Of a DNA stretch of 64,000 nt, positions 5,000 through 51,830 are shown piece by piece. The position numbers and the translations under genes were made by a program. The notes under the pieces are model-generated. The model was not told the DNA's origin and did no database searches. It saw only the letters and a program-made list of their open reading frames with translations. Within the stretch, counting starts at the first letter, position 1. Every line of letters starts with the position of its first letter. Origin of the DNA: Eudromia elegans (taxonomy: Eukaryota; Chordata; Aves; Tinamiformes; Tinamidae); contig PTEX01000234.1 in the NCBI GenBank assembly GCA_003342815.1, positions 183,132-247,131 of the forward strand, read 5' to 3'.

Positions 5000-5168
5000 A
5001 GGGCTGCGTGGGGCTGTTCTAGGGCTGCGTGGGGCTGTTCTAGGGCTGCGTGGGGCTGTTCTAGGGCTGCGTGGGGCTGTTCTNAGGGCTGCGTGGGGCT
5101 GTTCTAGGGCTGCGTGGGGCTGTTCTAGGGCTGCGTGGGGCTGTTCTAGGGCTGCGTGGGGCTGTTCT
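5000..5168 (+). repeat. 21-bp minisatellite, eight copies
   Basis: Eight head-to-tail copies of the unit AGGGCTGCGTGGGGCTGTTC plus T, at 5000, 5021, 5042, 5063, 5085, 5106, 5127 and 5148. The copies look identical. One N at 5084 sits between copies four and five and shifts the register by one base. Because the unit is 21 bp, each plus-strand frame reads as a heptapeptide repeat (GLRGAVL in one frame). The perfect identity points to recent expansion. The true copy number is uncertain because the ambiguous base lies inside the array. Confidence 0.95.
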
Positions 5169-10214: not shown

Positions 10215-11400
10215 ATCTAATAATAGTGGGTGTTTAACCGTCTATCGCTCATTAAGGGAATAAGCAGCTCAGAAAATAGTCGTAGTTAACTCAGAGCAAT
10301 TACGGCGTGCTGCGCCTCTGAGACAGCACACAGTCAGCATTTCTGGCCACGCTCAGCCACGGGGCTGGAGTGGATGTTTGACAGGGGCTTAAATCTGCCG
10401 CACAAGGGTCCTTCGTCCCCAGGGAGATGATTGCATGGGAGCACTCCGGAAGGACAGTTGCTGGCGTTTCCATGTACTTTGGTGCTAAAACAGCTCCATG
10501 AATTTGGTGTGAACCACAGGCCGAGCTGCTGTGCCCCCGCCAAGCACGTGCTGCCCCCACAGCCTGAGCCTCCGCTGGCAGGGAGTCTGCACAGGGCAGA
10601 TGAGAGGGGCTTGGGCAGGAGATGCAGGGAAAACCGCCTGGCCCAGAGGTTCCTCAGGGCTGCGGTCTGCACAGTGTGGACCTGCCTGCCCCAGGGGTAA
10701 GTCAGGCTGTGCAGCACGGTTCCATTGCTCCTAGGGACCCCAGAGACTACGTGTGCTCGCTTGTTCTGACCTTCCCATGTGGAGCAGCCTGGCGCATTTC
10801 TCACAGGATGCTGTGGGGAGGGTGAGGTCACAGTTTGGGTTAGAGTACTGAAGGACCACTGAGGTGGGACATCTGAGCAGTTCCCAAGGAGGCTGAAGCT
10901 TAGACCCTCCTGGTACCATGTTATGCAGGGAAGGAATATTACACAGGAAGAGAACCGTCGGAGGGCTTCTGCTCCTGTACCCTACATACAGCCAGCATGT
11001 ACCTGTGAATCCTCCACTGCCTTTGCTAACACTGCCCTACAAAGCTGAAGAATGCTCTTAGGGATCTTTTTCGATACCTCACTGCACTATTTTCCCTATA
11101 CTTTAAGTGATATTTTCTTTCTCTCTATCTGGAGTTTTTGCACAGCATCTCTTCAGCTGCAAGGATTTGTGCCAAGAGAAGACCTGAATGAAGTAATGGG
11201 TCTGCTCTGCACTGGCATCCCTTGGTGCTGCCACGAAGGGCCTCTGCACCTGCCTGAAACGCCAGGAAAAGGGCAGCGATTCCTTGCTGCTTCTGTCTGC
11301 CCAAGTGTGTCCCGTTAAATCACAGGCCCCGCAGCAAGTCTGGGTCATGCTCCACAGCTAAGCAGTAAGTAACTAAAGCTGCAAGTGTCCTGCTAACGGA
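10215..11400. other. Upstream flank of the dehydratase-like gene
   Basis: Unique sequence with overlapping short frames on both strands and no family match that I can recognise. I see no transposon end. Confidence 0.4.
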
Positions 11401-11613
11401 ACGTCACCGCGCGTAATCCGGGCCCTGACTCAAATCGACAAGGACAGGTTGGCCGCTGAAATAATCTCTTTAAATAGCAGCAGCCGCCCCCCAGCGCCGC
11501 TCCCCGCCCCGGCCCACACTGCAGAGCTGCTGCTGCCGCCGTGCCCGGCCGGCACCTCGCAGGCAGGGCTGCCCGCAGGCCCCGCTCGGGCTCCGCTCGG
11601 CCCCGCCGGCACC
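11400..11613 (+). promoter_or_regulatory. Promoter and 5' UTR of the dehydratase-like gene
   Basis: A TATA-like TTTAAATA at 11469-11476 is followed by a GC-rich stretch with several CCGCCCC/CCCCGCCC-type GC boxes, and then by an ATG at 11614 in good Kozak context (GGCACCATGA). If the TATA-like box is used, the start site would be near 11500 and the 5' UTR about 110 bases. The same element (CTTTAAATAG) resembles a MEF2 site with one mismatch. This is inferred from sequence only. Confidence 0.5.
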
Positions 11614-11714
11614 ATGAATTTTGCAGCGCAGCTGCTCTACTCTAGGGCATTGAAGAACAGAACGCCCAGGGTGTGCTCCCGCAGAGAGGAAGACTACGAC
11701 CCGTTCTGGCAAAG
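11614..11714 (+). CDS. Dehydratase-like exon 1
   Basis: The ATG at 11614 has a good Kozak context downstream of a TATA-like box. It encodes 33 residues plus two bases (phase 2), which match the single leading base of exon 2 to give arginine 34. The N-terminus ([16 protein letters not shown]) is basic and free of acidic residues, so it could be a mitochondrial presequence. The donor CAAAG/GTTGGA is weak. Without using it the frame stops after 40 codons. Confidence 0.55.
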
Positions 11715-17700: not shown

Positions 17701-20700
17701 AGCTCCTGTTCTTTAGCTTCGTAGCAGGATATAATAATTACTGTGTATCACAGTCATTTTCTTCCTGTCTCAAGGCAGCTGATGGCTGATGAGATGCTCT
17801 CTAAGTATGGAAGAGTGGCAAAGCAGATATCTTGCATACATCGTATTCACACTTGCTGTTGCTCCGAGTGGCGTTAGGGAATGGTCTTCAGCTGCTATAT
17901 TCCTCTTGAAAATGACAGAATTGCACACAGCAAACAGTACCAGATATGTCAAGCCTTTTGCAGAACCCGCTGAGAACTGGGACAGTCACTGACTGAGGTT
18001 GGCCTTCTGGAAGGTCTAGCTGCCCACATGGCTGTGCCACCTCTCTGCTTGGTTATGACAGGTTTTCAGTTTGTCCACATGCCAGGTTATCTGCGGCTCT
18101 TCTGCCAGCTGGATGGTTACAGTAGCCTGCGAGATCAATAATATGACATTAGAAATTTAGTGTGCATAATTGAGATTTGAAAAACAGCAGCTGAGCTGGG
18201 CATCTTTCTTGAATGTTAATGTCACCCTTTAATCATCCAGGCATGCCTAACAATTTTCTTCATTTGTTTTTAGGGATGGCAGTAAGATAAAGAAACAAGA
18301 TGCCCCAGCCCACTGTGCTCTTCACTGCTGTAAGGATGGGCCGGTAAGAAATGGCCACGTCGGGCAGCGGCCACCCGCCATCAACCCTGAGAGACTGAAA
18401 GATTTTGCTGAGGAAGACTACCTGAACGGGGATGTGAAGACGTGGGAGATGAAGATAGTGAGTCGTAACGAGGAGCTGCTTGGGGATGCCCATTCCCGAA
18501 TCCCGCAGAAAAGCAGTGCGACCAGCCTGTCGAGCTGTAACAAGCTGATTCGGTTTGAAGACATTAATGCAGCAGCTTTCAAAATCCAGTGTGGTGTTCA
18601 GAAGACACCCTGCATGGTAGGCAATTTGTATAGATCGGCATTCTCTAAATCCTTCCTTAAAATGACCAAGATGACTGATTTTCATATTAGTTGTCAGCAT
18701 CTGTCAATACTCATTTTCTTCTCATCTCTTCACACTAACGTAAATCCTCAAAGAGGGCAGTGACCTATGAGAAAAGGATGAATGGCATCAGGCACAGCCT
18801 TCATGCAGTATGATATCATGAACGTGGAGTGGGCAAACACACGTGCAGCGTGGGTGGTGAGGGGGCCGTGCAGGAAGGAGGGAGCAGAGCCAGCCGGCCT
18901 TGTCGTCTCACTCGGCATCTTGTGTCACCAAGCCCGCAGTGTGTTGTGCCTGAGGCGCACGCGCACCTCTAGACAGGGTGTTTGTGCTTTGCTTGTGTGG
19001 AAAGACTATCCCAGGGAGAGAAGAGAAGCATTTATATCATAGCTAGCAAGCTGGGGATTGTGAGCACTGCATGTCAGCAGTTGACAACCCTGGTCATACT
19101 TGTTAGTTGAGTTCAGTACTGCTTTATGAAGGTAGGTCAGTGGGCAGGGAGAGGGAGAGAGGCCTGAGTTGATGTGCAAGGCAGACCCAGCCAGCCTGGG
19201 GCCACGTGCGTGTCTGCCAAGGACCTGTGCTTGTGGGCACCTGGGCTAGCTGGGTCATTGCAGGACCCAGCTCATGCCCTCTGCTCAGATGGATGAGGGC
19301 AGCAGCTCAAAACCAGCAGCACCTGCATCTCAACCAACCCCACAAGCCATCTGCTTGGCCACAAAGATTTGCTGCAGCTCTTAAAATGGAGATGACCAAC
19401 GTACCCTAATGTGGGGAAAGGTGAGACTGCACCCAGGAGTCCCTCTTCTGCTCCTGCAGCTATCCACAGAATGTGAAATTTTTCATAAAGTGGTCGTGCT
19501 GCTTCCACGTAGTTAAATTCTCTCTGGCCAGTTCTCACCATTTGTTCTTAGGCAGCATAGCCCCTTAAGTAACTTGTTTTTCTTGGGTGTCCCTGGCAGA
19601 TTAACGCTGCACAGTTTATGCCCTTTCTGCTTTCACTGTGGCAAGCTGAACAGACCAACTTTCTTTAGCCTCATTTGTGAAATAAAATCTTAGGATGATT
19701 GTGCTAGTGGGAAATCTATTTGTCTTGCTGTGAAGATAGCCTGTGACTGTTGCTATTCATAAATATATTCATGCAGAAGTCGTTAGTATACATTCCATGC
19801 ATTAACTCAAAAGAAAATTATCTAAAGTGCAATGCTGTGTGCAAGAAAACACGGGTAACTTTTGTTTTATTTCCTCATCAATGAGAAGACTTCCTTTCAC
19901 ACATACATATATATTTGGATAAAAAAGCATGCACAGCTAAAAAAGCATTCAACTTAATTGAATGAATTTTTGCAGCCTGCAGTTTGATCCCTAATCTTCA
20001 GGTAAGCCCAAGGGTGCAACTCCCCACTGGATCCTTGTGCAGGAGCGTGCCTGGAGCTGAGACACGGCACCATGAATGATACTAAAACATCTGGTAGAGG
20101 TTGGGATTATAGGAAAAAGAACCAAGGATTTTAGCATTAAATCAGCTGCTTTGGCTGCCAATGTACGGGTTTCAGATGTTGTTTTGTGTTAGATTTCTGG
20201 ATGCCACATGGAGGCTGCACTGGGGTGTGTTGTGTGTTAGACAGAGTCTCTAGTTCCTAGACAGGATCAAGGTGACAAAAGGGGAAAGTTACTGGGAGGG
20301 AGGTTCACTGAGTCTTACAAGGTCACACATCAGGTTAGTACAGCTGAAATAGCACCGACACCCTCTCTGCCTATTGTTAGAGGTAGCTGCTATATTTAGG
20401 TCTGATGAAAAAAGAAAAACTCAGCTGAAGGAATGATTTGAAGAAGGAAAGGATAACCTACAGAGTTTGGTTATTGAGTATCAAAATTCAAATAGACATA
20501 TCAAAGCTATGCAGTGAATTAACAAGGCTTATTTTAAATGCAGGAGCCTTAGCAATTTTACAAAGTCACAAGACTAGCCTCCTTAAAGCAATTTTGTCAT
20601 TGTTCACTATAGAATCCAAGATGCTCTACAAAAGCAAATATAGTAAAACTAATGTGAAGAACTAGGAAGGAAGTATCTATTTTCCAGTGATTTTGTCCTT

Positions 20701-23700
20701 TCTTCACAGTGTAGGCTGTTATCCTATTATTTTACTCAGAACTTGCCACTCTTTCAGTTCTAAATTTCTAGAACTAGATTTTCATAGTGAGTGAAATCTG
20801 TGCTCTTACATTTTTCAGGATTTTCAGAAACAACATAAAGAATCTGGCCCCACCTATGGGTGAGGAAGTTAATAAATGTTTGTAAATCCTAGAAAGCCTG
20901 GAAGCATTCATTTGAAATATTTAGTTTAATTACTTGTTTGAATTTTACCAACATCTGGATGTTTTGTTTAACTGAAGCAAGTACCTGTTTCAGGTGTGTC
21001 TAATTTGCAGATATACCTAACACTTAATGTCTCACTTTACTAGAACTGGTAAACATGTAAAACTATCCGGTTATTATAACTATCTGTATGTACGCTTGCA
21101 CTTGCATGCCTTTTGAGAAAAATATTTGAAATATCTTGCTATGCTGTCTCCTAATCTATCTTTTTGTGACTTGTCATAAACAGGGACTTGATTCCCTAAA
21201 TCCACAGGTTTTCACTCTCTTTTGCAACTGATTGAAGTTGGGTTCCAATTCCACAGGGTTACTGGATCTCTAGTTAATAATAAATTTTGTTTAAAAAATA
21301 ACAAATGAAAACAAAATAACAAATGAAAACAAATGAAAACAAACAAACAAGAAAGAAATGACAACAGATAATACTGAAAATGAAGTTTTTCCATTTTAAT
21401 TTTTCCATTTCTACTTTTTCCATATTTCTATAACAATACTTCTATACTCCAGTACTCTAGGCTGTCAAAGCAGTATGGAGTGGACATCTACCTAAAGAAA
21501 GAGTTCCTCCAGTACACGGGCTCTGTGAAGGAAAGAGGTGTACTCCACCTTCTGACATCATTGCCTCAGGTATGACAAAACGGCCATGCTCAAAAAGAAG
21601 TAGATCACTTGTGCTTTACAGAAGCTGAGCAGAAATAAAACTCATCTTACTGGCAATGTCCATAGTCTTCCAGTGTTTCTGCACTTTCGAACCACTGTGC
21701 TGTTTAAGCACATGGATAAGTCTGCAAATGCCTGAATATCACATGTTTTACTTACTTATTTACACTTGACAAATCTACTGGATTTTTTGGTGATGTGCTA
21801 AAAATAATTTGAAAGAAGAGTTTGCAAAATGTAAACTTAAGCATTTTTCTTTAACGTTTGGATAAAGGTGTTTTTATCTGTATTATTGTTCTGACATGTT
21901 GAAATGATGATGAAATCAAGTCACAAGAATGAATCTAGATCACTGATGGATTTTGCAATTAATTTAAATATCATTACGTGACTTTTTTATCATCTATTGT
22001 AGGAGATTATTTGGTTTCTGCAATATAGTAATAACTATAATTGGCATGATATTTCTGAACTAACATTCAGGAGCTTTGGTTATTCCTGCACTCTTACAGT
22101 AATATAAATAATGAATAATAATTCTTTCTATTACAAGAAAACTTGAAATTATTTCCTATAGGCAGGGAAGAAGGACTTTGGAGTTAGATGGAGTTTTGCA
22201 GAACAAGAATCGAACCTTGAGAACTAAAGGAAAATAAAATGAGCTTATACTATGCTAGCTTTGTGTGTTAGGTGCTATGATCACCCAGACATGCATATAC
22301 TGTATCATATTATCACTATATGATCAGACAGTACAGGGAGAGAAAAAAAAAAGACTAAAAGTCTTTTAAGTAGGAGGAAGTTGGAACGCCAGAATGATCC
22401 CTGATCGTATGAGACCAGTTTGTGACACTGCATAACGTGCAGTAAGTAATCCTGTTTTGTAGGAGCAGCAAAGAAAGGGGGTGATCGTGGCTTCGGACAG
22501 TAACTTCTCCATGGCTGTTGCTTACCATGCCTCGGAGCTCCGTATCCCCGTGTTCGTCATCATGTCAACCAGCACCTCCCCTGCCCGAGTGAAAACGTGC
22601 CGTGACTACGGTGCCATGGTCATCTCCTACGGCACCACCGCCAAGGACTCCCAGACACATGCGAGAAGGCTGGCGCAGGAGAACAGCTACCTCTACCTCG
22701 AAGAGTACGTGGCAAGTGCAGACACTGGCTTTCCCTATCCCTGTTTATTACAACTTTCCCTGAGGTGTCATTAATTTAAGATTTGATCCAAGGTCCTCAA
22801 AAGGTCTACCTGGAACATGGACAGTTATATGTTTTCAGGTACAAATCATGAATCTGCATGTAATGGCTTGGAAACCAAAATGCACTATCCTTCCCCAAAT
22901 TAGGCAAATGTTCTGACTGGGAATGGGCTGGGCTGGTATTACCCTGTGTGCTGTGTTATTTTTTTATGAAACCCTGTCCGCGTGCATTTAGATTAGCATT
23001 CTTTTTTGGTCTCTGTCTTTGCAGTTAGGACATTCAAAGTCATCCTTTAAAGCAAAGGGTTCAGTGACATGGTATAAAGCAAGGAATGATTCATGCTGTG
23101 AAGATACTCGCCTGCCTGGCATGACTGACAAAACTGGGATACTGGCTTGAGAGAAGGGGATTAAGGGGAGACTTCACTCATGTGTTTAAAGCAGCTAAAG
23201 ATGATTATAAATTTAAGTTTGTGAACTACCTGAGGTCACTGAGTAAGCTGGATCTAATAGAAAGATAATTAGAACAAGAAAAGCCAGGCAGAAGTATTTA
23301 AATTGTGCTACTTCCCTCCTTTCCCTTTTTTCCTACAGTATTCTCTGCCTCTTCCCTCCCTTTTCTGTTTCTCTTACCCTTTTCCAAGGAAAACCACCAA
23401 AAGGGTGGAGGGGGTGAATCAGCAGCATGACGTAATGAGCAGTGGCTCTGTTGGGCTGAGCTGGACTGTCCGGCTCCTTCCCCACCAGCTCTGAGCGGGG
23501 CCGCTCGCCCTCTCGGCCCTTGTCCGGCACCTGCGGTGAGTGCCCGTTCCTGTCTGCCCCTTGGGACTCCTTGTCATAGACTTGGCAATACTGACGAGTA
23601 TGGTAATAGAATACGGTAATAGAAAGAGCATCAGAGAATGAGTGAGAAAGTCCTTAGTTCTTTCCTAGTGGGTTTTTACATATCTATTTCGGGGAAAACG

Positions 23701-26700
23701 ATACTAAAAACTCTGCACTTCAGTGCCAAGCCCAGCTCTGTCAGCAGCTAGTGCTGGACAGGGCTATTTGGCACACCTTGGTTGCCACCGAGGGCAGGAT
23801 CTTGTCTCACACCAAGGCTTTCACAGAAATCCAAGGGAATTAATGCCCCAGATCTCACTGAATTTTAAATACATTTAGACTCCTACATAGCTTTCTGTAA
23901 CCTTTCGATTTCAAAATCACTGTTAGACATTTTTTCGGTAGGTGTGCTAGCTGCCACTCTGTTTCACCACATATCACACTTGGGCATTGGAACTAAATTA
24001 CCTTATTTTCTTTACAAGTTTAATCCTGCTCCCCAGCTAATTCTTTATTTTACAGAGGGCAGATTCTCTAGGTTCATTAAAGTCCGGGGGCGATGCAAGC
24101 AAAGGACTTCAATACCCAGACCCAAACCATTCTAAAAGAGCACGTTACAGTTAATAAGATCTCAGCATTCAGATTTACTTTATTCCAAGATATGAAAAAA
24201 AAAGAGATGTTCAGTTTATTTAGAACCTAAGACTTCAGGCACAGGTTTTCACACTCAAGGCAGGGAAGACCAATATCACGTTTGAGAATCTTTTCATAAC
24301 GAGGTGCTTGAAGCATGAGTACTCAGGTTTGGATTGCGAGAGCTTTCCCAATGGGAGATGTTTATGTGGTATGGCCAGTCTTCTGGCATGTGTAGGCACC
24401 GCACTTTGATCTCATTTATCCAATTGATCCCCTGTGCTTTAGAAGAGAACTTCTGAAAGGAAATCCTATTTTGTTTTGTTCTTTTCTGTTTTATTTCAAA
24501 TCCTGTCCTGTCCAATTTCTAGCTTGCCTAAAATCCTCAGTGATTTGATCCTTAGCAGGTGGAAAAATCACTGTAATGTTTTTCCAAATATCAAATGCAT
24601 TCCCAGGCAATAAATCTGCTCTATTAAGGGGTTGTTCTTGTATTAATTACTAACTGGATAGAAGAAGAAATAAAAAAGAAAAAAGATAAGAAGTGAATGA
24701 TCAAAATAATGGAAAGATCCAACCCTTGTCCTGTTGCAAGCTCGTACAGATGAAATCACAGAGCTGAAGCTTATTTGTTCATCACACTGGTGGCCGTGTT
24801 GCTCAGAAAGGGATGACCTCACGGGATTGCTGGGTTTCCTTAATCCCCAATTTCTTCCTTCTTTTCTGAAGTAAACACTACATGACTGACTTCTGCTTTA
24901 CCTGTAGCATGTCGTGTCCTGCAGTTGGGTGTGCAAGTCTCAGTTCTCCATATTTCTCGAGTACAGTTAAATGCTGAGTTAGGAAAAGCAGGAGGCAAGT
25001 GCTCTGTTATGGGAGGGAAACTCTTTATCCATTTGCAACTGGGACCGGAAGTTCTAGGAAGGAAATTGAACTTTTTGAGCTGGAATTCAACCATGACTTC
25101 TTTGTATCGCTCAAGTAACATGGGGTCAGAACTTCATTGTATGTTTAATTGGAAGATTGGCCCATAAAGTGACACAGTACCTTTGGGGGAACATGAGAGA
25201 ATGACTGGGTTGTGAATCAGAGAGGGAAGAGTGTCACAGAAGGATTGCACACCTTCCTTCCTCGAGTGTCCTGTTTTCCCTTATGTAAATCCATATCCAA
25301 ATACTGAGCAGACCTCTCCCATATTCATGTATGATCTAGCTAGTCTGTTACTCCAGGAAGCCCAGCTGATTCTCTAATTTAGGAGAACAGAACCTAAAAG
25401 AATATGTTACACCAAACTTTGACTGGGAGACTGAGGCCTCAAGAATGGTCTTCAGTTGCTGACTTAGAAGACAAGCACTGATATTTCTAGATCTGATTCA
25501 AAAAAGCTAATTTAAATATGCAGACTTAATTTCTCCTTTTTCCTGCTTTCTTCTTCCTTTATTCCTTACATATTTTTTTATGGCATATGATAGTGAAAGA
25601 GCTAAGTATAAATATAATTTTAAAAATAATTTTATTATAAAAAGCTGAAGGCTACTCAGTGAACTGCTGTTTTAACTAAATGTTAGTGGGAAAAATGTGA
25701 TTGTGTAAAACAGTCATTCAAATTGCTCCAGAAGAACTGCTCAGCAGACCAGAGATCAATCCTGTCATGCATAAAAAGCAGAAGAAAGCTCCCTTGGTAC
25801 CTTCATAAACATACTTGAATTCAAGGGTTCGGTTACCCGTTCCACTGTGATTTCTTGCCTTAGTCTTTGCTGCTGTTAAGGGGTAGAATTTCATTCCCTT
25901 CATCCTTCCGCGTGTGGTCACACTGGCTTGTGCCCAGTGGCGTTTTGCACAGAGGCATCGGCTGTGCATGTGAAGGGACTTCTTCTAAGGAGGGCCTTAG
26001 TCTCCACCTGAGAGGCGCTCCGGGCCCCCTGCTGAGCCTCCCTGTGCAGGTCTAACAGGATTAGAACAACACAACTTCTTAGTTCTAGACCGCGCCGCGC
26101 GAAGCAAAACAAGTGAAATCCCTGGAGCTGTAATTCTGTTTGGTTATCCGTCTGCCAGGAGAAGCAGAATGTACGGGCACCAGCAGCCTCATGTTTTTCA
26201 TTCATATATCATTCCATATTTACATTTTTGCTAACTTTTAACTAAATCCAAAACAGATTTTAGAAACAGATATAAATTAATCATGTAGCTGACTATACAG
26301 CAGGCTTTAATCTTTTTACTCTTTTTCCCCTGTTCTGGTAATTAAACTCCTGTGCCCTAAAGTGTTTTACCAGTAGGTATTTTGGCAGACTAACTGCTTC
26401 TCTTATCCTTCCGTGAGGTCTTCCAAAGTAATGTGAAGATATCGGATATTAGCCCTGGACTATGGAAAGACTTAACTCTGTATTAGCCTGTTTGGTCTCT
26501 AAGAGGGTGAACATAGTGCTTAAATTTAATGAAAAATCCTTTTTTATCAGGAACACTAAATTCCACTCGTAAATAAAGAGAGAAGATCTTTCTAGTCTTC
26601 ACTTTGGTTCTGATTACAGCATTTAAAATTCATGAAGCTTAAGGAGGTGCCAGCAATGAAAGGACTTCTGTCCTTTTCAGATCTGTGTTTATCTGATAGG

Positions 26701-29700
26701 AGTAACAGCAAAGCCACGTGTCCTCTTCAGCCTGCTGGCTGTTTGGGAGCACAGGTTGGATTGCGAGTTCTCCTTGATTGCTGCTGACTGCTTTAATCCC
26801 AGCCTTCTCTCCTGCATGAAAACTCACTGTCCTGTTGAGCCCGGATGAGTGGTGATTCAGCTAGCTTGCAGCACTTGCTGGCGTGGTTGCAACCCAAGGA
26901 TTTGTGCCTCTGTTCTTCAGAAGATTTTTTGATCTGACATCAATTCATTTTGCAATATGGTTACACACTATTTCGAAAAAAGTCAGAATCAAAGCCTGTC
27001 ATGGTCTGTTTGATGGCAGAGACCTGTTGTATTACCTCCTGGCCCAATCGTGCTACTGATTTACTCTCATGTATAACTTTTCTGCTGAATCATATCTTGG
27101 AAGCAATAGATGGAAGTATGATATTGTTGAGATACACGAACTGTGCTGAGCCGGGTCCTTCCTTCCTGCAGAGAGGACAGCGCTGCGTACCTGTCCGGCC
27201 TGGGCACGGTGGGGCTGGAGATGTACGAGCAGGTGCCAAAGCTGGACGCGGTGGTCTTCCCTGCAGGAGGGCACTGCGGCTTGCTGGCCGGCTCGGCTGC
27301 GGCACTCAAGCATCTCAACCCACAAATCTCGGTGATTGTAAGTTCCCCTTCACTTTGAACTGTTGTATTTTGACAGCTTTCGCCTCCTACCAGCAGGATT
27401 TCCAAAAGGCCCTAGGCTCTGGCGAGACACGGGGACAGTCTGTATGTGCCATGGTCAGGAGCCCTCCGTGCCCAGGAGAATGGTATCTGGGCACTTGAGA
27501 AGTCTGCTGACTCTTGTCTGCTTGGCTGGATTTAAAATGTATGCATATATATATGAGAATGCTCTTCCAAAATAGATCAAATCTGGTTCTGTGTTTTGGA
27601 TTCATTTCTTACGGGAAAATTTTGGCCCTGGAAATGTCACAAGATAAGTTTAGTGAGAGTGTAATTATTTGGGGAAATATCTCCTAAAACATTTTGTTAC
27701 TATTTTGTATTGTTGGTTGACTTTCAACTTTTGTGCAGGTGCCATTTTTTTCCATTTTGTTTTGAGCACTTGAACACTATCCATTCTGATGGTGACTTAT
27801 GTTATAACTCGATCAATGAAGTCTGTCATTGCTTCCCTTCCTTAGGGGGTTGAATCTGAAAGCTTCCCTGTGTTACAACAGTCCTTGAAGGCTGGCCACC
27901 CCATTGAAGAGCAGGCTTGCAGCAACCACCACTTCTATGGAGGTAATGGATTATTCTTCTAGAGGTAGAGTAAAAATTGTAATTGATTTCTCCAACCTGA
28001 TCAAATTCTTTTCGTGCTAATTCAGTTCTAACATATTTGAATGAGATCTAACGTTGAAGAATCAGAATTTCACTCACCCTGCTTGTAAGAGCGACTTCTG
28101 ACATGTTACCTCAACAGTATTCCCACCTAGTACTACAGTGCATAGGAAATTTTCAGGACAATACTTAGAAACAAGAGAGTATTTATTTGACAGGTTCACA
28201 AGCAGTATTTATAGGCAGAAAATTTTGATCCTTAAGAATTTAGAGTTAGAAAATTGTCATTAGAACAACAGTATTTATAAACATTTTTCAGTTGGTTTTG
28301 TATCATTTACTCAGAAAAAAAAATGCTTTTAACCAGATTAAGAGTATCCTGTTTACCTGATGTTTGAATCTCTTGAAGTTTTGAATTAAATGAAAGCTTT
28401 ATTTTTTAAATCTCCCAGTAATTCCTGCATATCTCTATTCCCCTTTGCTGACTGTCCTGCTGCAAATTACAGACCCTGCAACTTTGAGTTCTAAATCTGT
28501 GTCAGGCCTCCTCGTACGTTGAAAGCTCTCCTGTATATGGGCCCTTGCTGTGCAAAAAGACTGCAAATAGAGAAGCAGAATTTTCCTACTGGGGCCTAAA
28601 ATGACAAATTCTGGGCAATCTTTGCTCCTTTATTACCAGACTCATTTTTGCCATATAAATATCAAATAACTTGAGATTATATAATAGCAGTGTGCTACAC
28701 TAGTTTTATTTTATTCTATTAAGGTCACAAAAAAAAGAGTCATAACTCTAAAAATATGTAGGAGGAGTTTGAATGAGCTTCTTACTGTTGTGTTTTGACC
28801 TCTGCAGATGTGAGCGGACATTGCTTTGGCAGCAATTCTTTGCAGCTGACCGGGAAACTCGTGGACAAGGTTGTTGCTGTGAGGTAGGCGAAGGGAGGCA
28901 GCGCGACGAAGGACGTTGTGTGAGCGTGGCAGGGTGTGGAGAAGGGGCCACGGCAGGGCACAGTCCTGCTCCGCCTGCGTGGGGAGCAGCGCCTGGGGCC
29001 CGGGTGCGCTGGGTGCCTTCCACTGCAGCAAGGGGCCCTGCCGGCAGCGAGCCCACATTGCCAACATGCCTGTCGTGCCCTACCACGTGTGGTGGTGGCC
29101 TTTGGAAAAACTCCAAAAGGCCCAGAGAACTCCTATAATTTAATTGAGAAAATGGTTGTAGTTAAAAAAAAAAAAAAAAAAAGGAATCATGCTGTCCTGT
29201 CTTTCAGGGAATAGCACTTCTGAGATGGACATCCACCCCCAGCAGCACAACTTTGTATAGTGCGACCACGAGGTCACTACATAACCAGGAGGATAGTAGG
29301 AATTCCTTAATAAGTAGAGGATTTTGGCTTTTGGTAGCTGTTTTGTTTTGACCCAAGTGTGTTGCTTTTAGAGAGGAAGACATCCTCATCTCAATGCTGA
29401 GATTGCTGGAGTATGAGCGAGCCACCGTTGATGCGGAAGGGGCCATTGGACTTGCGGCTTTGATCGCCGGGAAGCTCCCAGAGTTGAAGGGGAAAAGGTA
29501 GGGCAGCTCTTGCAAGCCCAGAGCTTAGCAGGGAGTGGGGCAAAAGCACAGGTCTGAGTGCGCTTTGGCTGGGGAGGGTGCTTGATTTAAGGGAATGGCA
29601 GCTTTTGCCCTGAGCCAGCAATGGGCTCATCAGTGTCACCTCAGGCTGAGGAGACCACACAGAACCCACAAAAACTCACACAGATCAAGACAAACTGCAG

Positions 29701-32700
29701 CCCAGAGAGTGGGCAAATACAATCCTTTGGCTGTGTTCCCAAAAGACCAGGGGAAGAGTCATCGCACCGGCGCAAGGCCCGGCCATGCCCGCGGGGGTCA
29801 GCAAGGAGGGCGTGCTGCCGTGTCAGTCCGTTGCTTCCCTGTGCAGACCCCCGGTGTCCGTGGGACCCTGCTGCCCATGTGAGGGAATGAGCCCAGAGAG
29901 CAGCCAGAACCCTGGCCTGGTGACGGGTGGGATTACCCTTGGCCTTAGAGTTAAACGTGTGCTAAGTGCCTTCTTAGGTCGGGGTGTGAGCGCTCAGCGC
30001 TTAAGCAGCTTGAGCCTTGGCTCAGGACAAAGCCCAGGGTGTATTTAAACATGGATAGACCAAACTACAACAACAAAATCCAATGCACAACATCGTACAC
30101 TAAAATACTAAGTGAAGCAGTTTTTCAGAACTGGTTGGTAAAGTGCAGCCAAGGCAGCAGCTTCAATTCAGTAATTCTGTACAACTAAAATAAATGGGCA
30201 GCTCTACAGGATTAGGTTCAAAGGAGGTCGGGTTTGGTACTTTAGAGGATGATGTCATGGGCTAGCCATATGACTTTACATTTGCTTTTCAAGCCTTTCT
30301 GTATTCACTTTCCAAAGTAGAGATGGATTTTAATGGGTAGAGGAAGGCTTGAGCACATATGTTATCTAACTGCTGAGAAGCAGAAACTCAGAATTTCCTT
30401 TCCAGAGAAAAATACTGTCCCTTTTTTTTTTTTTCTAATTCTGAAACAGAATTAGAATGTTTTAAAAACATCAACAAATGTACAGTGAAAAAAAAATCAG
30501 ACAATCTCATGCATCCACCTTCCAGGGTCCCACTTTATTCCTGCAATGGATACTGAGAGCCAGGAGCTGCTCTTGTCTGTGACTCGATGACTCCTGTGCA
30601 CAAATCTTGACTAACAGAAATCCTGTTTTCTTTGTCCTTTCAGAGTGGCAGTTGCTGTATGCAGTGGGAACTTGGAATTACATTTGCTGCAACAGTGCAT
30701 AGCTCGTGCCCTGACCCTGGATAACAGAGTGTGCAGGTTTTCCCTGGTGCTTTCTGACTGCCCGGGAGACATTGCAAAGTTACTGGAGCTCCTGGCTCGG
30801 GAGGAAGCGAGGTAAGTCAGACACAGGCAGCAGGGATATATAAGGAGTGAGGCTGTCGTGAGAAGGAAAGTAACTTCACAAAAGGTAACTTTTTTTATTT
30901 TGCATTTTTGTAATTCATATTTCAGGAAACTTTTTTTCCCTAACTTTTTATATCAATTTGCAAACATCTTTGCATCTTTGAGGAAGTATCTAATATGGAA
31001 ACCGTAAGAAGTGGTTACAGTCCAAACACTGAAATTATTTTACAGTGACAGATCTTGTTGTGACCTCTAATTTATCCTTTATTTCATCCTAGAGTATTGG
31101 ATCTCAAACAAGAACGCTTGTTTGTGACAACGGGGCTCTTCACTGTTGAGGTAAGATAAAATGCAGTTTCAGTTCCTCTAGCGGTACTGATTTCCCTGCA
31201 TTTCTCCTATTTTCCTACGTCTCTGTGTGGAGTTTTGATGGAGTCCAGCAGTGAATATAGTTCACAGAGTGCTCTGTGATTTTGAAAGTAGCGTGATAAT
31301 CAGCAGTCTCTTCTAGGTTGCACATAATCCTGCCTCATCAAACACTTAATAGGCATATAAATAATACCTGTTCTACCTGCTATTGCAACAGTCAGTGAAA
31401 TACTCCAGCTATTGACATTGCAAACCATCATGTGCCGGAAGTGATGAGCAAGCTTCATGATCCGTTCAGAACTGGACGAGTGAGCTGTGTAGGCTGCCTG
31501 TAATTACCCAAGATCAATCTGCCTTAATCGATGTGGTAACATCCTTGCTCTAAAGGTATCCTCGTTTTTAACTGTGGCCTCCGTTCTGTACCTTGTCCAT
31601 AAACAGCACAGAGCAAAGTTGTCATTCCGATGCTGAGAGTTTGATATAGCAGCAGTGCAGAAGTGTTACCAGCTAATGTCATCTCTTAAAGGATCATTTG
31701 TTGCTTAGTCTCTCTCTTATTCCGACTGGTTTTGCAAAGGTGTGGTTCCACTGATTTCACGCTACTGTTGTCCTAACCTAATCCGACCGAGTTTGTGAAA
31801 TCGCGGGTGGCAGCGTTATGAAAGGGTCAGACTTGGGATCTTGGGTACATGGACTCGCAACCGAAATTCTTACGGTGAGACTAGTGAATAGTTGCTGTTC
31901 CACGGTACTGCTCAAATATGAAGTAAAACCACTAAATTCCATAGCTGCAGGAGTTCCAGACTGACTCGTGTTTTGCGAATGAATTTTCCTGGATGCAAGG
32001 ACCTGCCCAGTGTTTTTGCTGAGGAAAGAAAGATCAGATTAGATTAAAGATTGCTATAGCCAAGGACTGCAGTGAGGTTCAGGAACATCTTTCCAAGTGT
32101 GCTGTTCTCTGAAGTGTCTAGGACTAAATCTGCACTATTCTCCATGTGCTGAGAAGAATGTGCCAGCGTACTCGTTTAGTTGCTTGAAGGTAACATGACA
32201 ATGAAATCAGTTGACAAATGTTTTGGATTCATAAACAACTAATTTAATAAACCTTTTGTTTTTTTTCTTTGACTGAAAGACTGGTCCTACAAACCCCGTA
32301 ACTCTTCTGGAGAGTTCTCAGTATAATTTTTATGCAATAAGGCTTGTAATTTTTACTCATGTTACTAAGTAAATTCAACTAAATCTACTCTCTCACTCTT
32401 TTGATTGACAATGTTAGAGTATTTTTTCATTGCTATTGCAACCTTTGCTGTTAGATAATTTTATCAAAACCTGCAACAACAGTCTCTGAATTTAAAAAAA
32501 GTTTCATGTACTACTACCTACATTTTAAATGAATACAGTCTATTTTCACTGACTAAGCGCTTCAGGAATCTGACACCACATTGCACTACGAGAGGGCTAA
32601 AGGGAGGAATTTATGTCCCTGAATAACTAAATTGGATGTTGGACTGGCATGGTGGCTTTTAACCAGTAAGTCACTATTGGCTAATTAGATGTGAGCTACA

Positions 32701-35700
32701 AAACAGTCATCTAGATTTATAGACCTCCATGATTTTGCGGGTGCTTATATTCAGGCAGCGAATCATAAAACTTTTCCTTGAAAACTAGAACCACAGTAGT
32801 CAAAATCAGATTTGTCTTTAAGAATTGAATTTGCTCAAAAAGGATTTAAAAAATGCAAATTTTCTTGTAGCAAGTTTAGTTCATATGTGGAGGATACTTG
32901 ACTTTGTTGTTATTGTGAAACATTTTAAGCATATATCTACATATAAGCAGACCTAAAAAGAACTTTAAATTGTTTAACTTAACGTACTGTGATTTACAGT
33001 GAGTAATGCATGGGTATAAATCTGGATCAAGAAGCAGAGTTATTTTGTGTGTAGTATAGCTCTGTTGAACTGGTGGTGACCATAGCAAAAACATTACAGC
33101 TATACTGCTCAACTCTAAGTTTAATACATGCTTTTACTGTGGATGTAGGTTATGCATTACACGGAAGCATGCAGTACACATAGTGGCTTATTTCAGATAG
33201 TAAATCGGTCCTGTCAAGATTGTAATTTTGGGATTTTATCGGGATTCGATCATCCTTGTAGATTTATCCTTTCCTTTCAAAGTGGCAGCTCTTCCCTGCC
33301 CCTCAGGGAAACAGAGACTCCTCCTTCCCCATGGTGAAATGCCGGGCCAGATGGGCGCTCATCCGGGCTGTGCTGGAGCACCCTGTGGAAAGAGCCTTGC
33401 TGATAGCCCGATTTCAGCAGCAGCAATGACTTTCTACAGGGATGGAGGACGGGGCTGGCCTCTTCTCAGTGGTGGCCAGTGATAGAACTAGAGGGAATGG
33501 CCACAAATTGAGGCACCAAAAGTTCCACAGGAACTTGAGGAAGAATTTCTTAACGGTGAGGGTGACAGAGCCCTGGAACAGGCTGCCCAGAGAGGTGGTG
33601 GAGTCTCCTTCTCTGGAGATCTTCCAAACCCGCCTGGACATCACCCTGTGCCACATGCTCTAGGGGACCCTGCGTGTGCAGGGGGTTTGGACTAGATGAC
33701 CTCTACAGGTCCCTTCCAGACTTAAGCATTCTATGATTCTATGCCTCATGTTCAGATTACCCTTTTAAAAAGATCACTTTTGAAATATTTCACTAGTGAA
33801 AATAGTTTTAAGAAGGGGATAGAAATAAATCCTCATTTCTTTGAATGATTTATGACTGCATTAGATTCAGCAGGTGCTTAATCAAGTCGCTTGTGCAGTG
33901 GGATCAGCTTGTCCCATTCCCGGGAAAAATACAAGCATTTCTCTCAGATATTTCCTATTGCTGCCTCTAGCTTCTCTTTCCTTATGGCTCATACTGGATT
34001 TCTGTCCTGTGGAGGACTCCAGCTTAGTGTACTCGGGAAGGAACAGAGGCTCTACCAGGAGTGCATCTCTCTCACCTCCACAGGAGCAGTTAGGGAACGG
34101 GCAGATAAGGGAATGGGCTTGGAGCACCTTGGAAGAGACCGATGGCCAAAACAGCCCCATTGTGTTGCATCCTCCTCCCACCAAGCATTAATTTCCAAGG
34201 CCAATTGCAGCTTTCCTTCAGTGTGTGGTATTTCCTGGCCCACCTTGTGCCACGTCATCCCTGCTTCCGCATAGCGTCTCCTCCCCTCAGGCCAGGAGTC
34301 CTTAAACAGTTCTGGTGTGTTGTGGTCAACCCTAGGGAACCCTTGGGGCCAAGCTGCCTTTTGAGGAGACCCGAGGGGAAGATCCAGTCACCGGCCTATT
34401 CCGTGTTATTGGCCTGTTAGTGGCATGCAGAGGGTCACGCAGCCCTGGCCACACGAGGGATGCGATGCAGTCACTCCTAAAGCATTTCCTGCGTGACCTT
34501 GGGCAAGCCCCTGCTTCCCTGCTCCAGCTTCCCCTCTGCAAAGTGCAGATGTTTGGAGCGTGAGTGCAATTATTTTTTTTTTTTCTGAGAAAGAAAATGT
34601 GTTCAGTACTTCTCCACAATAGCATCCCACACCAGACCAATATAGAATATTACACTCCAAATGAGAAAGTGTCTGGGGAGGCTGCGACGGGGCCTGTTTG
34701 ATTTTTATCTTAATTGTGGAATGCTGTGATAACTCGTTTGGGCCTGTGCTCACCGCTGGGAATACGAGAGCTTGCCATAAGCCACGGGCCCCATTGCACA
34801 ACCGAGTAACAGCCGCCGCGGCTCCGATAGCTCTTGCTCAAGCAGCGGGTGCACCGACCTTGTGGGCTCTCTAGCCCCCGGGCCCTGCACTGCGTTGAGG
34901 GCTTACTGAGAAACTGGGAAAAACACGGGGTTTGATCTTTGTGGTAGAAAGCCTTGCCTTATTTGTGGAATTGAAACTAATGTACAAACAAGGATAAACT
35001 CTCATATAAATACATAATATAGGTTAAAAAAATCAAAGTTGTCTTTTCTAACTCCAGCAATTTGCCTGCAAACAAACCTATATTTTTGTATCATAAATAT
35101 TCACTTTTTTAATCCCCACAGATCAACAGCTTAGACGTGGAGTGTGAATACAGTGTCTAGGATTGATGAGTGGGATGCAAACATTCCGTAAATTAGGAAT
35201 AAGTGGGACGTGAGGAACAGTGCTATTCCTTGTTAGTATCCATCTTTACCCAGAGCATGGATGAGCACAGAAGACTGCAGTCCTTGTGGCTGAGCAGTGC
35301 TGCTGCCCTTCACTCTGTTCTCTAGCACTGGCTTTTCGGCTCCACCTGATGGCTTTTTCTGCACGGGCAGCCTACAACAAGGGAGCGGGCAACAGGGAGC
35401 TGCGAAACACATGGGCTGGACTTTGACTACCTAGAAAAGTGTGATTTAAAAGGCAAAATGCCCAAGTGTGAGACTTTCACATAAAGGGGAGCTGAGCTCT
35501 CCTTTCTGTTGCCCAAATGATGTGGCACAGAAGGTATTAAATTTCCCCTGTTCGTGCAGATACAAACTTTCCTCTCTTTGAAATGGAACTAATTAATGCT
35601 TGTGAGTAGTTTAATATAGACATATCCAGATTATGTTGGTGTTGCACAGAGTAATAGCTTTCATTTGATCTTTTCCATACTCTTATTCTTTTAGCCTTTG

Positions 35701-38614
35701 TCCTCCTCTTTTAATCATTTCTAGTTATCTTTTCCAATTATTAAAAACAACTCATGAGACACATACCCAGCAAAGACTGTTTTTATAGGCCTGCTATAAA
35801 AAACAGGCTAGCTAACCCCCAAGGCTAGGTCCAGTGTTTGGATTAGTTGCCACAATAAAAGAACCATCTGGCTGATTATTAATTTACTGAGGCATATCAT
35901 TTTTATTTTTTCAATCCAGCAAGGATAAGATCTAGAAGCAAAGAAGTGCATAGAAATGTACTGTTTGTTGATACATGGAAAAGAAAGACCAAGTATGGTC
36001 TTGAAGTCAATGAGAGCTCTGCTGGATCAGAAAGCCTGTGTCTAGTGCAAATATTGAGGGCTTGGGACTTTGAACTAAATCTAAAGCTGTACTTGCCCAT
36101 TCGCTCTCTCTCTCTGGGTTTGCATGTCCACAGTTATTTAAGGATGGTTCTTACATGAGGCAGTGAGTTTGGCCACTGCCTCTTGAAGAAGACCGACTTG
36201 GAGGACTTGCGCTTAGCTGGTCAGTGCGTATGTGAACAGGAATATGAGGGTTCTCCTAGTGACGCCCACGTAAATCATATTTCCTGGGTGATGTGAAGAA
36301 GAAAGAGGAAGCCTGTGAAGAGATACAAAACTGCAGTGGAAAATGTCTTCATCTGAACAAGAAAGCAAATTCCCACACTTGCCTTCCCTGACTTCTGGAT
36401 CTGTGTAGCTATTACAAAATGCAGACCGATTATCTCTTTGCTCCGCTTGTGAGTAAACTCACATTATCAGACAGTGTAAAAGACCAAGTCAATTTTAAGT
36501 CGTGTTTGCTGCTGTTGTTGCCCTTTCATTTAGGCTGCACTATAACACGTTGAGGGGCAATATTGCATTTGTGTCAAACTCTGTTCATGCACAGAACAAA
36601 ACCACAGTGCTCACCCAGAATGCCTGCGTGCTCCGGCTTCAGTCTGCCCCCTTCCACCTGGCTTCAATCAGCAGCACAAGGAAGAGGGCAGCGGGGAGGA
36701 CGGTTTGCTCTGGGAATCAAAGTCTTTCCCGTGCTTGCTCCCAGGGCAGAGCAACCCCCTGCCTGATATCCAAAGTAGAACCCAGCAAGTTCAGGCTAGT
36801 CCAAAGTGCAACAACTGGTTTGCTCAGGACAGAACAGATGTGATGGCTGCAGAGGGGAGAAAAAGAATGTTTTGTGAGTGGTTTTTTATTTGCAAACTCT
36901 GTGAGAGGTGAATATGTATTTGTGAAAATAGGGCTGCAACGCTTTGAGGATTGATGCTAACCGGAGGCTGGGTAATGGGTGCTTTGGTGCCTTTAGAGAC
37001 CTTTCCAGTCGTGGTGTTCTCTCCTCTTCCCTCAGTATTAAGTAATTCCTTCTTCTGTGACTGTCTTTTTCTTGGGACAAAGTCCAGCTTTTTCAGAGGA
37101 GAAAGAAATTGGCATCTAGAATGTGTTCCAGAGATTGTAAAAGGAATAGGACTGTGTTCAGAATAAGACACAAAGAGTTACAAAAACAGACCAGAAATGT
37201 GGCTTATTTCATGGTGAATATTTAAGAATTTTTATTTAATTAGAGTGAGCTCATAGGTTTTTGGAATAACCTGGAGTTGGTATTTCATCCTCCCAATCAG
37301 TAGTTTGGTTAAAGAATTGTTGTCATCTAAAGCTCATTCCAGGAAACATGAATTCACAAAATTCTGATTTAGGAATGTGCTCATAAACATAATGGAGGTA
37401 AGGCTCATTTTTTTGTTTCTGTCTTGTTTTCTTTAAGCTTTATACGTGGCATCTGTTTCTAGTAATCCACCTTAAAGTTATCAAGACTCGTTTTTCCTCT
37501 CTGTTTTCTGTAGATAGGCTGTTGCAATAAATTCCCTGCTGCTGCACCCTGACTCATCCTGGATCCTTTCCTCCCTAGATTTCCATGTTTTTGTGAGGCT
37601 TTTTTTCCACGTGGCACTTTCTACATCAGTGATAGTTCCAGCGGGAGCAGGGAGGGCTGAAGTGGTCTAAATTCTTGAACTGTAATTTCCTTCGTGCACC
37701 ATGACACTGGTGCCTCGCCTCTGGCAGACTTTGACTATATTGATTTCACATCAGAAAGAAGCCTGGATTTTAGAATGGTGCAGTAAAGATGTGAGTATAT
37801 AGAAAAGATATATCAAAGAATAAATGAAAAAAAAAGTCATTGATGTTATCGGTCTTCTGTTAAGTAAGGGTCAGAAAGGAAAACTGTCCAGTTCACGTTT
37901 GCCTAAGTTTAGTCTGATTTAGTGACAACTCTAACAGAGCACTAGAACTGATGCAATAAGCAAACACAATCAAAACAAACCAACCAAACAGAAAAAGGAA
38001 AGCAGGTGAAGGTTGTGTAAGTGCTTGAAGCCAGCCAGCATCCTGTAGCAGGGGCCAGGTCTGCGGGAGAGGAGAGAATTTAGAAAGGACAAGGGGATGG
38101 AGATGCTGAACACAGACTGCCCGGGAGCGTGGCAATCTGGGGAGGCAAAGTCCAAGTTGGGTGCAAGAGCAGCAGCAGAGGGAACAGGAAAGAGAAGCTG
38201 CCAGTGGGTCACTCCAGGGCCTGCTAGGGGCAGCAGGAAACTCTCTGCCCAGGAGCCAGGAGAGCATCAGCCCTGGAGCTGATGCCCTGGAGCATCTCCC
38301 CCAAACCTGGAAGGTCCTGGCAGGGGGCTTTGCAAGGCCTGCAGATCTCCCTGCAGGAGTGGAGAGACCCAGACTTTCTGTGCTAGCAGTCTTAACTGTG
38401 CAGAAGGGAATGCAGGGTCCAGAGTTTTTATATTGGCTGGTCGTGTTGCTTTCGAGACTGTATTTGTCTGAGAAGGCTGCGCTGTGCTTAAGGGTGTCCC
38501 TACTTCTTTTCCCAGGTCACCTGCACTGTAGAGACTAGGGACAAGGTGCACACGGCTCAGGTGAGAACGGCGCTCCTGGAGCGCTACCCGGCAGCCCGGT
38601 GGACGGAGCGGTGA
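11614..38614 (+). CDS. Threonine/serine dehydratase-like PLP enzyme (11 exons)
   Basis: Fold-type II PLP-dependent protein related to IlvA/TdcB threonine dehydratases, which deaminate threonine or serine to a 2-oxo acid and ammonia. I join 11614-11714, 18274-18616, 21453-21569, 22463-22704, 27172-27337, 27846-27942, 28808-28883, 29372-29497, 30644-30811, 31093-31150 and 38516-38614. This gives 1593 bases, 530 residues and consistent phases. Residues 1 to about 140 are an extension with no domain I recognise. The core has the PLP lysine K174 (TGSVKERG), the Asn loop SDSNFS (198-203, usually SAGNHA), a GLGTVGLE segment, a phosphate loop [11 protein letters not shown] (298-308, usually PIGGGGLIAG), EGAIG (403-407) and CSGN (429-432). 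The tail (about 480-530) contains VETRD, like the ACT-like tail of TdcB-type enzymes. Family membership is clear. Substrate and activity are not, because the two cofactor loops are altered. Exon 1 is the least certain exon. I know of no accepted symbol. Confidence 0.85.
12830..13040. promoter_or_regulatory. Intronic CpG-rich patch
   Basis: Dense CG content (for example GCACGGCTCGGCGGCCGCACGC, described here in part only) inside intron 1, with AT-rich flanks. It could be an alternative promoter or an unannotated first exon. Frames on both strands are low-complexity and unrecognised. Confidence 0.35.
13068..13155 (+). repeat. MIR-like SINE relic
   Basis: The segment CCAGTCGTTTTAATCTGTCT, followed by GTGCCCCAGTTCCTCATC and an A-rich GGGAAACTGAG, lines up with the middle of the MIR consensus as I recall it (gggcaag, ttacttaacctctctg, cctcagtttcctcatctg, taaaatgggg). 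Divergence is heavy, as expected for a repeat inherited from early amniotes. Confidence 0.6.
14000..14400 (-). mobile_element. Ancient CR1-family fragment, antisense
   Basis: The reverse complement contains CTGCCACAGGATACTGTGAA followed by GGCCAAAAGTATAA (about 14240-14280). At its 3' side it contains GATGGTCCTTTGGTCCGACC (about 14010-14032). Both are signatures of old sauropsid CR1 3' regions. The fragment is degenerate, without open frames, and its left end lacks an intact octamer tail. Confidence 0.6.
14766..14785. repeat. Poly(T) run
   Basis: About 20 consecutive T followed by GCAG in intron 1. On the plus strand this resembles a polypyrimidine tract plus AG, but no open exon of the gene follows. 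Confidence 0.8.
18274..18616 (+). CDS. Dehydratase-like exon 2
   Basis: The acceptor TTGTTTTTAG lies at 18264-18273 and the donor CATG/GTAGGC at 18616. It encodes residues 34-148. This is the largest exon and makes up nearly all of the N-terminal extension, including the stretch [14 protein letters not shown]. The catalytic-core homology begins only at its end ([18 protein letters not shown]), which corresponds to the ...TP... lead-in of threonine dehydratases. Confidence 0.85.
18617..21452 (+). other. Intron 2 of the dehydratase-like gene
   Basis: About 2.8 kb of mostly unique sequence. The only low-complexity feature seen is an A-rich stretch built on AACAAATGAA-type units at about 21292-21355. 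No exon is recognised. Confidence 0.5.
21453..21569 (+). CDS. Dehydratase-like exon 3 (PLP lysine)
   Basis: The acceptor ATACTCCAG and donor CAG/GTATGA flank 39 codons in phase 0. It encodes residues 149-187, starting [18 protein letters not shown] and containing TGSVKERG with the Schiff-base lysine K174. The usual motif is TGSFKxRG: the aromatic residue before the lysine is valine here, and the residue after it is glutamate. Confidence 0.92.
22463..22704 (+). CDS. Dehydratase-like exon 4 (Asn loop)
   Basis: The acceptor TGTTTTGTAG ends at 22462 and the donor GAAGA/GTACGT follows 22704. It encodes residues 188-267 plus two bases. It contains [17 protein letters not shown], the counterpart of the SAGNHAQG cofactor loop. 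The cofactor-binding Asn is kept (N201), but the preceding Ala-Gly is Asp-Ser and the following His is Phe. [10 protein letters not shown] matches the helix that usually reads K(V/A)xAxxxxGA. Confidence 0.92.
22705..27171 (+). other. Intron 4 of the dehydratase-like gene
   Basis: About 4.5 kb. It holds a small CG-richer spot around 23460-23535 and otherwise AT-rich unique sequence. The short overlapping frames show no family pattern, and I see no recent transposon end. Confidence 0.5.
27172..27337 (+). CDS. Dehydratase-like exon 5 (phosphate loop)
   Basis: The acceptor CTTCCTGCAG ends at 27171 and the donor GATT/GTAAGT follows 27337. It completes E268 and encodes residues 269-323. [12 protein letters not shown] matches GQGTIGLEIxEx of the family. 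The phosphate loop reads [11 protein letters not shown], so the tetraglycine is replaced by Gly-Gly-His-Cys-Gly and one residue is inserted. Confidence 0.92.
27846..27942 (+). CDS. Dehydratase-like exon 6
   Basis: The acceptor CCCTTCCTTAG ends at 27845 and the donor GGAG/GTAATG follows 27942. It encodes residues 324-355 plus one base. [19 protein letters not shown] aligns with the GVQ(P/S)E...xSxxxG segment of threonine dehydratases. Confidence 0.9.
28808..28883 (+). CDS. Dehydratase-like exon 7
   Basis: The acceptor CCTCTGCAG ends at 28807 and the donor GTGAG/GTAGGC follows 28883. It encodes D356 to R381 with split codons at both ends ([12 protein letters not shown], then [10 protein letters not shown]). 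It corresponds to the DGxxVxxPG...VDDxVxVxE region. The usual Pro-Gly is replaced. Confidence 0.88.
29372..29497 (+). CDS. Dehydratase-like exon 8
   Basis: The acceptor TTGCTTTTAG ends at 29371 and the donor AAAAG/GTAGGG follows 29497. It encodes residues 382-422 plus two bases. [20 protein letters not shown] and then [15 protein letters not shown] match the E(D/E)xIxxAM...ExxxxxxEGAGAxxxAAL block of the family. The acidic E403 of the EGA motif is kept. Confidence 0.92.
29498..30643 (+). other. Intron 8 of the dehydratase-like gene
   Basis: About 1.1 kb. Its first half is moderately GC-rich and holds overlapping frames of up to 95 codons without recognisable similarity. A short T-run is at about 30422-30434. 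Confidence 0.45.
30644..30811 (+). CDS. Dehydratase-like exon 9
   Basis: The acceptor TGTCCTTTCAG ends at 30643 and the donor GCGAG/GTAAGT follows 30811. It encodes residues 424-478 with split codons. [15 protein letters not shown] matches the vxxxxSGGNxdxxxl strand that holds the pyridine nitrogen of PLP. The remainder, [20 protein letters not shown], starts the ACT-like domain (a beta strand, then ...PG.L..LL). Confidence 0.92.
31093..31150 (+). CDS. Dehydratase-like exon 10
   Basis: The acceptor TCATCCTAG ends at 31092. It encodes residues 480-498 ([19 protein letters not shown]), the middle of the ACT-like domain. The donor GAG/GTAAGA is strong. Read through, the frame would end two codons later at a TAA (31157-31159), which would remove half of the ACT-like domain. 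Confidence 0.88.
33419..33743 (+). mobile_element. CR1 LINE, 5'-truncated 3' end
   Basis: The sequence follows the avian CR1 3' region: GGGAATGGCCACAAATTGAG, then CCCTGGAACAGGCTGCCCAG, AGAGGTGGTGGAGTC, GACTAGATGACC and CAGGTCCCTTCCAGAC, finishing with two copies of ATTCTATG at 33728-33743. Only the last ~325 bases of the element are present, so it lacks the reverse transcriptase domain and is dead. It is in sense orientation with the host gene. It is the clearest sign that the DNA is avian. Confidence 0.93.
34488..34556 (+). repeat. MIR-like SINE relic
   Basis: CTGCGTGACCTTGGGCAAGC, followed by a C/T-rich stretch and CCCCTCTGCAAAGTGCAGATG, parallels the MIR core as I recall it (tgtgaccttgggcaag, ctctgtgcctcagtttcctc, atctgtaaaatg). 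It is old and short, and lies in intron 10. Confidence 0.6.
38516..38614 (+). CDS. Dehydratase-like exon 11 (end of ACT-like domain)
   Basis: The acceptor CTTCTTTTCCCAG ends at 38515. It encodes the last 32 residues and a [23 protein letters not shown] matches the final strand and helix of TdcB-type threonine dehydratases, which read (V/L)xxxxETRGxEHxxxxxxxL. The join GAG/GTC to exon 10 is phase 0. An internal CAG/GTGAGA at about 38561 could act as a cryptic donor. Confidence 0.88.
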   Translation, partial: VTCTVETRDKVHTAQVRTALLERYPAARWTER

Positions 38615-50480: not shown

Positions 50481-50499
50481 CGCTAGAAATGGGCGAGCA

Positions 50500-51681: not shown

Positions 51682-51691
51682 GAAAGAAAAA

Positions 51692-51723
<32 letters not shown>

Positions 51724-51739
51724 AAACCCCACAAACACA

Positions 51740-51777
<38 letters not shown>

Positions 51778-51783
51778 AACCCC

Positions 51784-51828: not shown

Positions 51829-51830
<2 letters not shown>

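Follow-up and report, generated by a model that had tools for sequence, protein, structure and literature searches.

The subject of this analysis is a gene for a pyridoxal 5'-phosphate (PLP) enzyme of fold-type II in Eudromia elegans, contained in a 64,000-nucleotide stretch of contig PTEX01000234.1 (positions 183,132 to 247,131 of the forward strand; the whole stretch is referred to as the window). The gene occupies positions 11614-38614 of the window on the + strand, and its 11 exons splice to a 1593-base reading frame for 530 residues plus a stop. An original prediction had proposed a dehydratase-like enzyme that keeps its PLP lysine within altered cofactor loops, and had placed it at 21453-30811, a span that covers exons 3-9 only. 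The protein is read here, tentatively, as a PLP enzyme with a remodelled pocket. The exons are as follows.

11614..11714, + strand: probable exon 1, residues 1-33 plus 2 bases; start context GCACCATGA, in a CpG-rich stretch
18274..18616, + strand: exon 2, N-terminal extension, then the start of the dehydratase domain (IRFEDINAA...QKTPCM)
21453..21569, + strand: exon 3, lysine loop TGSVKERG at 21516-21539, with the K174 codon at 21528-21530
22463..22704, + strand: exon 4, asparagine loop SDSNFSM (S198-M204, 22493-22513) in place of SAGNHAQ
27172..27337, + strand: exon 5, GLGT (Q278L) and the phosphate loop PAGGHCGL at 27260-27283, with one residue inserted
27846..27942, + strand: exon 6, holds Y354; codon 356 is split across exons 6 and 7
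28808..28883, + strand: exon 7, remainder of D356, then VSGHCFGSN...
29372..29497, + strand: exon 8, E401D at 29430-29432
30644..30811, + strand: exon 9, PLP-nitrogen motif C429-S-G-N432 at 30660-30671; the C-terminal regulatory-type domain begins
31093..31150, + strand: exon 10, C-terminal domain
38516..38614, + strand: exon 11, C-terminal domain and stop codon

All ten introns are bounded by GT and AG, and the exon phases match. The spliced frame contains only the terminal stop, which bears out the earlier claim of a frame intact over 11 exons; the other two frames hold 29 and 21 stops. GC content at codon position 3 is 0.654 in exons 2-11 compared to 0.444 overall (bases 1-61,900). Exon 1, which is probable, is the least certain part of the model. 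Its start lies in a good context and in a region with a CpG observed/expected ratio of 0.78 (11400-11799) compared to 0.38 overall; its donor is weak (AAG/GTTGGA, score 3.8, with 3.5-11.6 for those of exons 2-10). With exon 1 included, the lysine is numbered K174, as it was originally.

On the basis of its match to PF00291 (PALP; 218 bits vs a gathering cut-off of 35, E 2.3e-64, residues 107-395 of the protein from exons 2-11), the window protein is a member of the fold-type II PLP enzyme family. The family signature SxKxRG is present (S172-V-K174-E-R176-G177), as is the loop asparagine N201. The best NCBIfam models were PRK07334 and TIGR01127, both threonine ammonia-lyases with one C-terminal domain. 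The PRK07334 alignment extends into this domain, to position 404 of 408, and an alignment by eye covers the same part; Pfam ACT gave no match to the protein from exons 2-11 at E values up to 1. Among PDB chains, the best matches were TdcB (2gn0, E 2.6e-39) and IlvA (1tdj, 7.8e-39), with chains named serine racemase further down (about 6e-34 to 7e-30), whereas mammalian SDS and SDSL were more distant by sequence (about 1e-12 to 1e-10). A maximum-likelihood tree with 15 relatives, built without eukaryotic sequences and possibly subject to long-branch effects, placed the window protein on the side of four alphaproteobacterial members that share its KERG motif (two from Azospirillum, one each from Sphingomonas and Methylobacterium; split support 85).

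The gene thus most likely belongs, as judged from profiles and tree, to the threonine ammonia-lyase lineage that combines PALP with one C-terminal regulatory-type domain. The alphaproteobacterial one-domain enzymes described by PRK07334 and TIGR01127 align with it over both parts. Nevertheless, identity to the four KERG members is only 29-33%, and unlike the one-domain enzymes, the window protein carries SDSNFSM, GGHCG, CSGN and an N-terminal extension of more than 100 residues.

Conserved positions were defined with 15 relatives, namely 13 plasmid-borne sequences, hand-picked for variety among 40 of 936 matching records, and segments of TdcB and IlvA. A column was considered conserved at an agreement of at least 90%, which gave 49 columns; the relatives were scored leave-one-out over 41-48 columns, and gaps in the three short sequences were not counted. 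Of the 49 columns, the window protein keeps 32 and departs at 17, compared to 0-10 departures in each relative (10 in a Rhizobium sequence). The original notion of a kept lysine amid altered cofactor loops stands. The departures are F173V, A178V, A199D, G200S, H202F, A203S, Q204M, G214R, P222S, K229R, Q278L, G302H, A354Y, G356D, E401D, G430S, and D434E, of which A354Y and G356D are less sure, as the local stretch is longer in the window protein. K174, R176, G177, N201, G300, G301, G304, and N432 are kept.

The three alterations first described are all present in the sequence: K174 stands in TGSVKERG with Val before it, SDSNFS replaces SAGNHA in exon 4, and GGHCG replaces the tetraglycine loop, where alignment of the 15 relatives requires one insertion. 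The relatives have SAGNHA in 14 of 15 cases and GGGG in 14 of 15 (SGGG in the other), and the inserted residue is absent from all of them. Beyond the original list, we found E401D, G430S, Q278L, A178V, Q204M, the Cys at the PLP-nitrogen position, A354Y, and G356D. Most departures lie close to the PLP site: 14 of 28 conserved columns are changed in the loop stretches, compared to 3 of 21 elsewhere (Fisher p 0.015), although the test is post hoc and only indicative, the stretches having been marked after the alignment was inspected. A sequencing error is unlikely to lie behind the loop changes, because they are spread over several separate exons and the insertion comprises a whole codon.

The source assembly (944 Mb, 723 contigs) was searched with PF00291, and the best candidates were scored. 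This yielded at least 11 matches (three on contig C151, three on C656, two each on C480 and C380, and one on C41); the three on C151 are exons 3, 4, and 5 of the window gene. By their sequences, the loci on C656, C480, and C380 read as SDS/SDSL-, SRR-, and CBS-like, respectively. Among the best-scoring matches so classed, no second copy of the window type was found, and within the window neither TdcB nor the window protein gave a strong tblastn match to an alternative canonical exon or a second copy (other matches E ≥3).

Two of these genes served as same-genome controls. The SRR-like gene (L018, C480) reads SSGNHG, PVGGGG, and CGGN, and the SDS/SDSL-like gene (L017, C656) reads SFKIRG and AVGGGG, with the asparagine loop ACAGGNAGM (ACAGGNAGMAVAYAARELG), in which the usual Ser is gone and Gly-Asn kept. 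Both genes have a canonical tetraglycine loop. The SRR-like gene also has a canonical asparagine loop, that of the SDS/SDSL-like gene is slightly altered, and neither shows the loop combination of the window gene. With CGGN, the SRR-like gene has a Cys at the position of Ser313, the PLP-nitrogen residue of human serine racemase. On C380, about 41 kb separates the two CBS-like matches (L019 and L021), which share a strand, each read GGSVKDRISLRMVEDAERAG, and possibly represent a CBS duplication.

Some of the changes have parallels. Val before the lysine, counted originally among the altered features, is weak evidence and by comparison is not a sign of decay, because it is present in the two CBS-like loci of the assembly (GGSVKDR) and in the solved cysteine synthase 5jjc, where SVKDR aligns at the lysine (a weak match, E 1.4). 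Nor is Cys429 a sign of decay, since Cys is found at this position in 3 of 15 relatives, in the SRR-like gene, and in mammalian serine dehydratase (SDH), which uses it at the PLP nitrogen (PMC6424897, PMC555945). The altered asparagine loop likewise loses part of its weight, as an Asp in this place fits beta-elimination: according to section 16 of PMC6424897, the human serine racemase variant S84D loses racemisation, keeps beta-elimination, and prefers L-serine 50:1 over L-THA. The phosphate loop is able to vary, because human CBS uses GTGGT instead of four glycines (PMC7277093); variation of the window type was seen in none of the 15 relatives. Also without parallel in these are Ser for Gly, Phe for His, and Met for Gln in the asparagine loop, the phosphate-loop insertion, E401D, and G430S. 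Judged on the alignment, Q278L, E401D, G430S, the inserted residue, and the remainder of the SDSNFSM loop stay unusual.

The vertebrate enzymes resemble the window protein in different respects. Human and rodent serine racemase share the fold type, and their Lys56, Ser84, and Asn86 correspond by motif to K174, D199, and N201 (PMC6424897, PMC6333871). Differences are the replacement of Ser84 by Asp, Val at the F55 position, and the phosphate-loop insertion; Ser84, to which PMC6424897 assigns the role of Re-face base, is thus by motif not conserved. SDS and SDSL are fold-type II dehydratases with Cys at the PLP nitrogen as well (PMC6424897, PMC555945), but theirs are SxKIRG, S(A/G)GNA, and GGGG(L/M), as given in PMC555945. 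CBS and cysteine synthase share Val before the Schiff-base Lys and, in the human CBS loop of PMC7277093, the departure from four glycines; however, they form a different subfamily, and the residue inserted in the window protein is not a feature of their loop.

The loops were also sought elsewhere. The degenerate pattern P[AV]GGHCGL had one match in a GTDB contig collection that represents each of 84,980 species by one genome. It was rejected as a chance match, being out of frame with the only listed + strand open reading frame of at least 100 residues and adjoining an open reading frame that resembles a transposase. This search says only that GGHCG is not a common prokaryotic variant. Viral contigs contained no match to this pattern, none to SDSNFS (for which they were the only collection scanned), and no confirmed relative. 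PMC555945 counts SDH and SDH1 (SDS and SDSL) as the serine dehydratases of vertebrates, describes chicken as lacking SDS, and makes SDSL (SDH1) solely responsible for serine dehydratase activity in chick liver. For a third vertebrate Ser/Thr dehydratase, the literature searched, which left most subscription papers outside, offered annotation names only: 'L-threonine ammonia-lyase-like' in a catfish table (PMC11010891), one in a honeybee table, one given to a planarian sequence by BLAST, and one attached to a dragonfish transcript that is described as bacterial and closest to Geobacter.

Taken together, we propose, with a probability of roughly 0.45, that the gene encodes a beta-eliminating PLP enzyme with K174 as the binding lysine and a remodelled pocket, whose activity on small neutral amino acids is shifted or weaker. 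In such an enzyme, K174 would form the aldimine with PLP, and removal of the alpha-proton would be followed by beta-elimination. By analogy to solved relatives, N201 would hold O3' of PLP, C429 would contact the ring nitrogen, and the GGHCG backbone would hold the phosphate. Going by the motif match, D199 may turn away acidic substrates, as in serine racemase S84D. D199 and its altered neighbours would reshape the carboxylate pocket, and substrate or rate would consequently differ from those of threonine deaminase.

Several observations weigh against this proposal. The scores remain below the equivalog cut-offs of both best models (293.7 of 496 bits for PRK07334 and 279.5 of 378.75 bits for TIGR01127), and the terminal branch of the window protein is the longest in the tree (1.35, followed by IlvA with 1.26). 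Asp199 is equated with Ser84 of human serine racemase by motif and not through an alignment that includes serine racemase. Furthermore, A178V, G200S, H202F, K229R, E401D, and G430S, as well as G302H with the insertion, affect columns that are invariant in all 15 relatives, and the same applies to the less surely aligned A354Y and G356D. Jointly, these changes could abolish catalysis.

The last point leads to the main rival, a pseudoenzyme that has lost catalysis but retains its fold, perhaps with bound PLP, in order to bind a partner or to regulate. The clustering of departures near the PLP site, together with the retained scaffold residues and open frame, is what such a protein might show. 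The protein nevertheless keeps the Schiff-base lysine with its RG, as well as the loop asparagine and three glycines of the phosphate loop, and a non-catalytic protein would have no need of them, which makes loss of catalysis a possible but doubtful explanation; a PLP enzyme whose activity is shifted or weakened is favoured over it. Shifted substrate, weakened catalysis, and pseudoenzyme, the options offered originally, may each still apply.

Relaxed selection on the gene in this lineage, with decay just beginning, would account for the long branch and for the many changes at otherwise fixed positions. This is improbable, because all 531 codons (stop included) remain in frame and the changes are concentrated in active-site loops, where decay would not be expected to cluster; the 11 exons with ten GT-AG introns, a coding-type GC3, and the conserved scaffold point in the same direction. 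About equally improbable is an ordinary serine/threonine dehydratase of normal kinetics that tolerates its substitutions, for although Val before Lys and Cys at N1 are found elsewhere and an S84D-type Asp permits beta-elimination (PMC6424897), 17 conserved columns are changed and the phosphate-loop insertion is found in 0 of 15 relatives.

Outside the exons, the window contains a tandem array at 5000-5168 (21-base unit, 8 copies, 98% matches) and an A-rich one at 51683-51838 (period about 53), in which long A runs are broken by short pieces. A peptide at 33430-33660 on the + strand probably represents the tail of a CR1 element, of a kind typical of avian CR1 remains. The - strand is open over 50081-50482, in a GC-rich frame that includes a possible start codon and a hydrophobic segment (MAAERARDGSCHFQRSRLLWMIGITFGMILLG); it gave no Pfam match and may be a first exon. 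A run of N at 62070-62611, either a gap in the assembly or withheld sequence, lies within a GC-rich region, and the open frame that follows it to about 63170 (...EENYVYFAPDASAVGKGF...) resembles a coding exon; this frame (62.6-63.2 kb) had no match in Pfam or PHROGs. An Rfam search gave no match.

We further consider, as a doubtful proposal, that vertebrates have, next to SDS and SDSL, a third protein of the Ser/Thr-dehydratase type, represented by this gene. Joint rebuilding of its carboxylate loop and phosphate cup (SDSNFSM, GGHCG, CSGN, Glu to Asp), and fixation of the result, would have produced an enzyme that uses PLP on a new substrate, or else a regulatory protein that senses PLP. If the loops are fixed across vertebrates, they would constitute a natural experiment on the extent of change that a PLP site tolerates with its lysine retained, and a little-described member would be added to vertebrate serine/threonine metabolism. 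A further dehydratase-like gene in birds would also bear on the attribution of the chick-liver activity to SDSL alone, as made in PMC555945.

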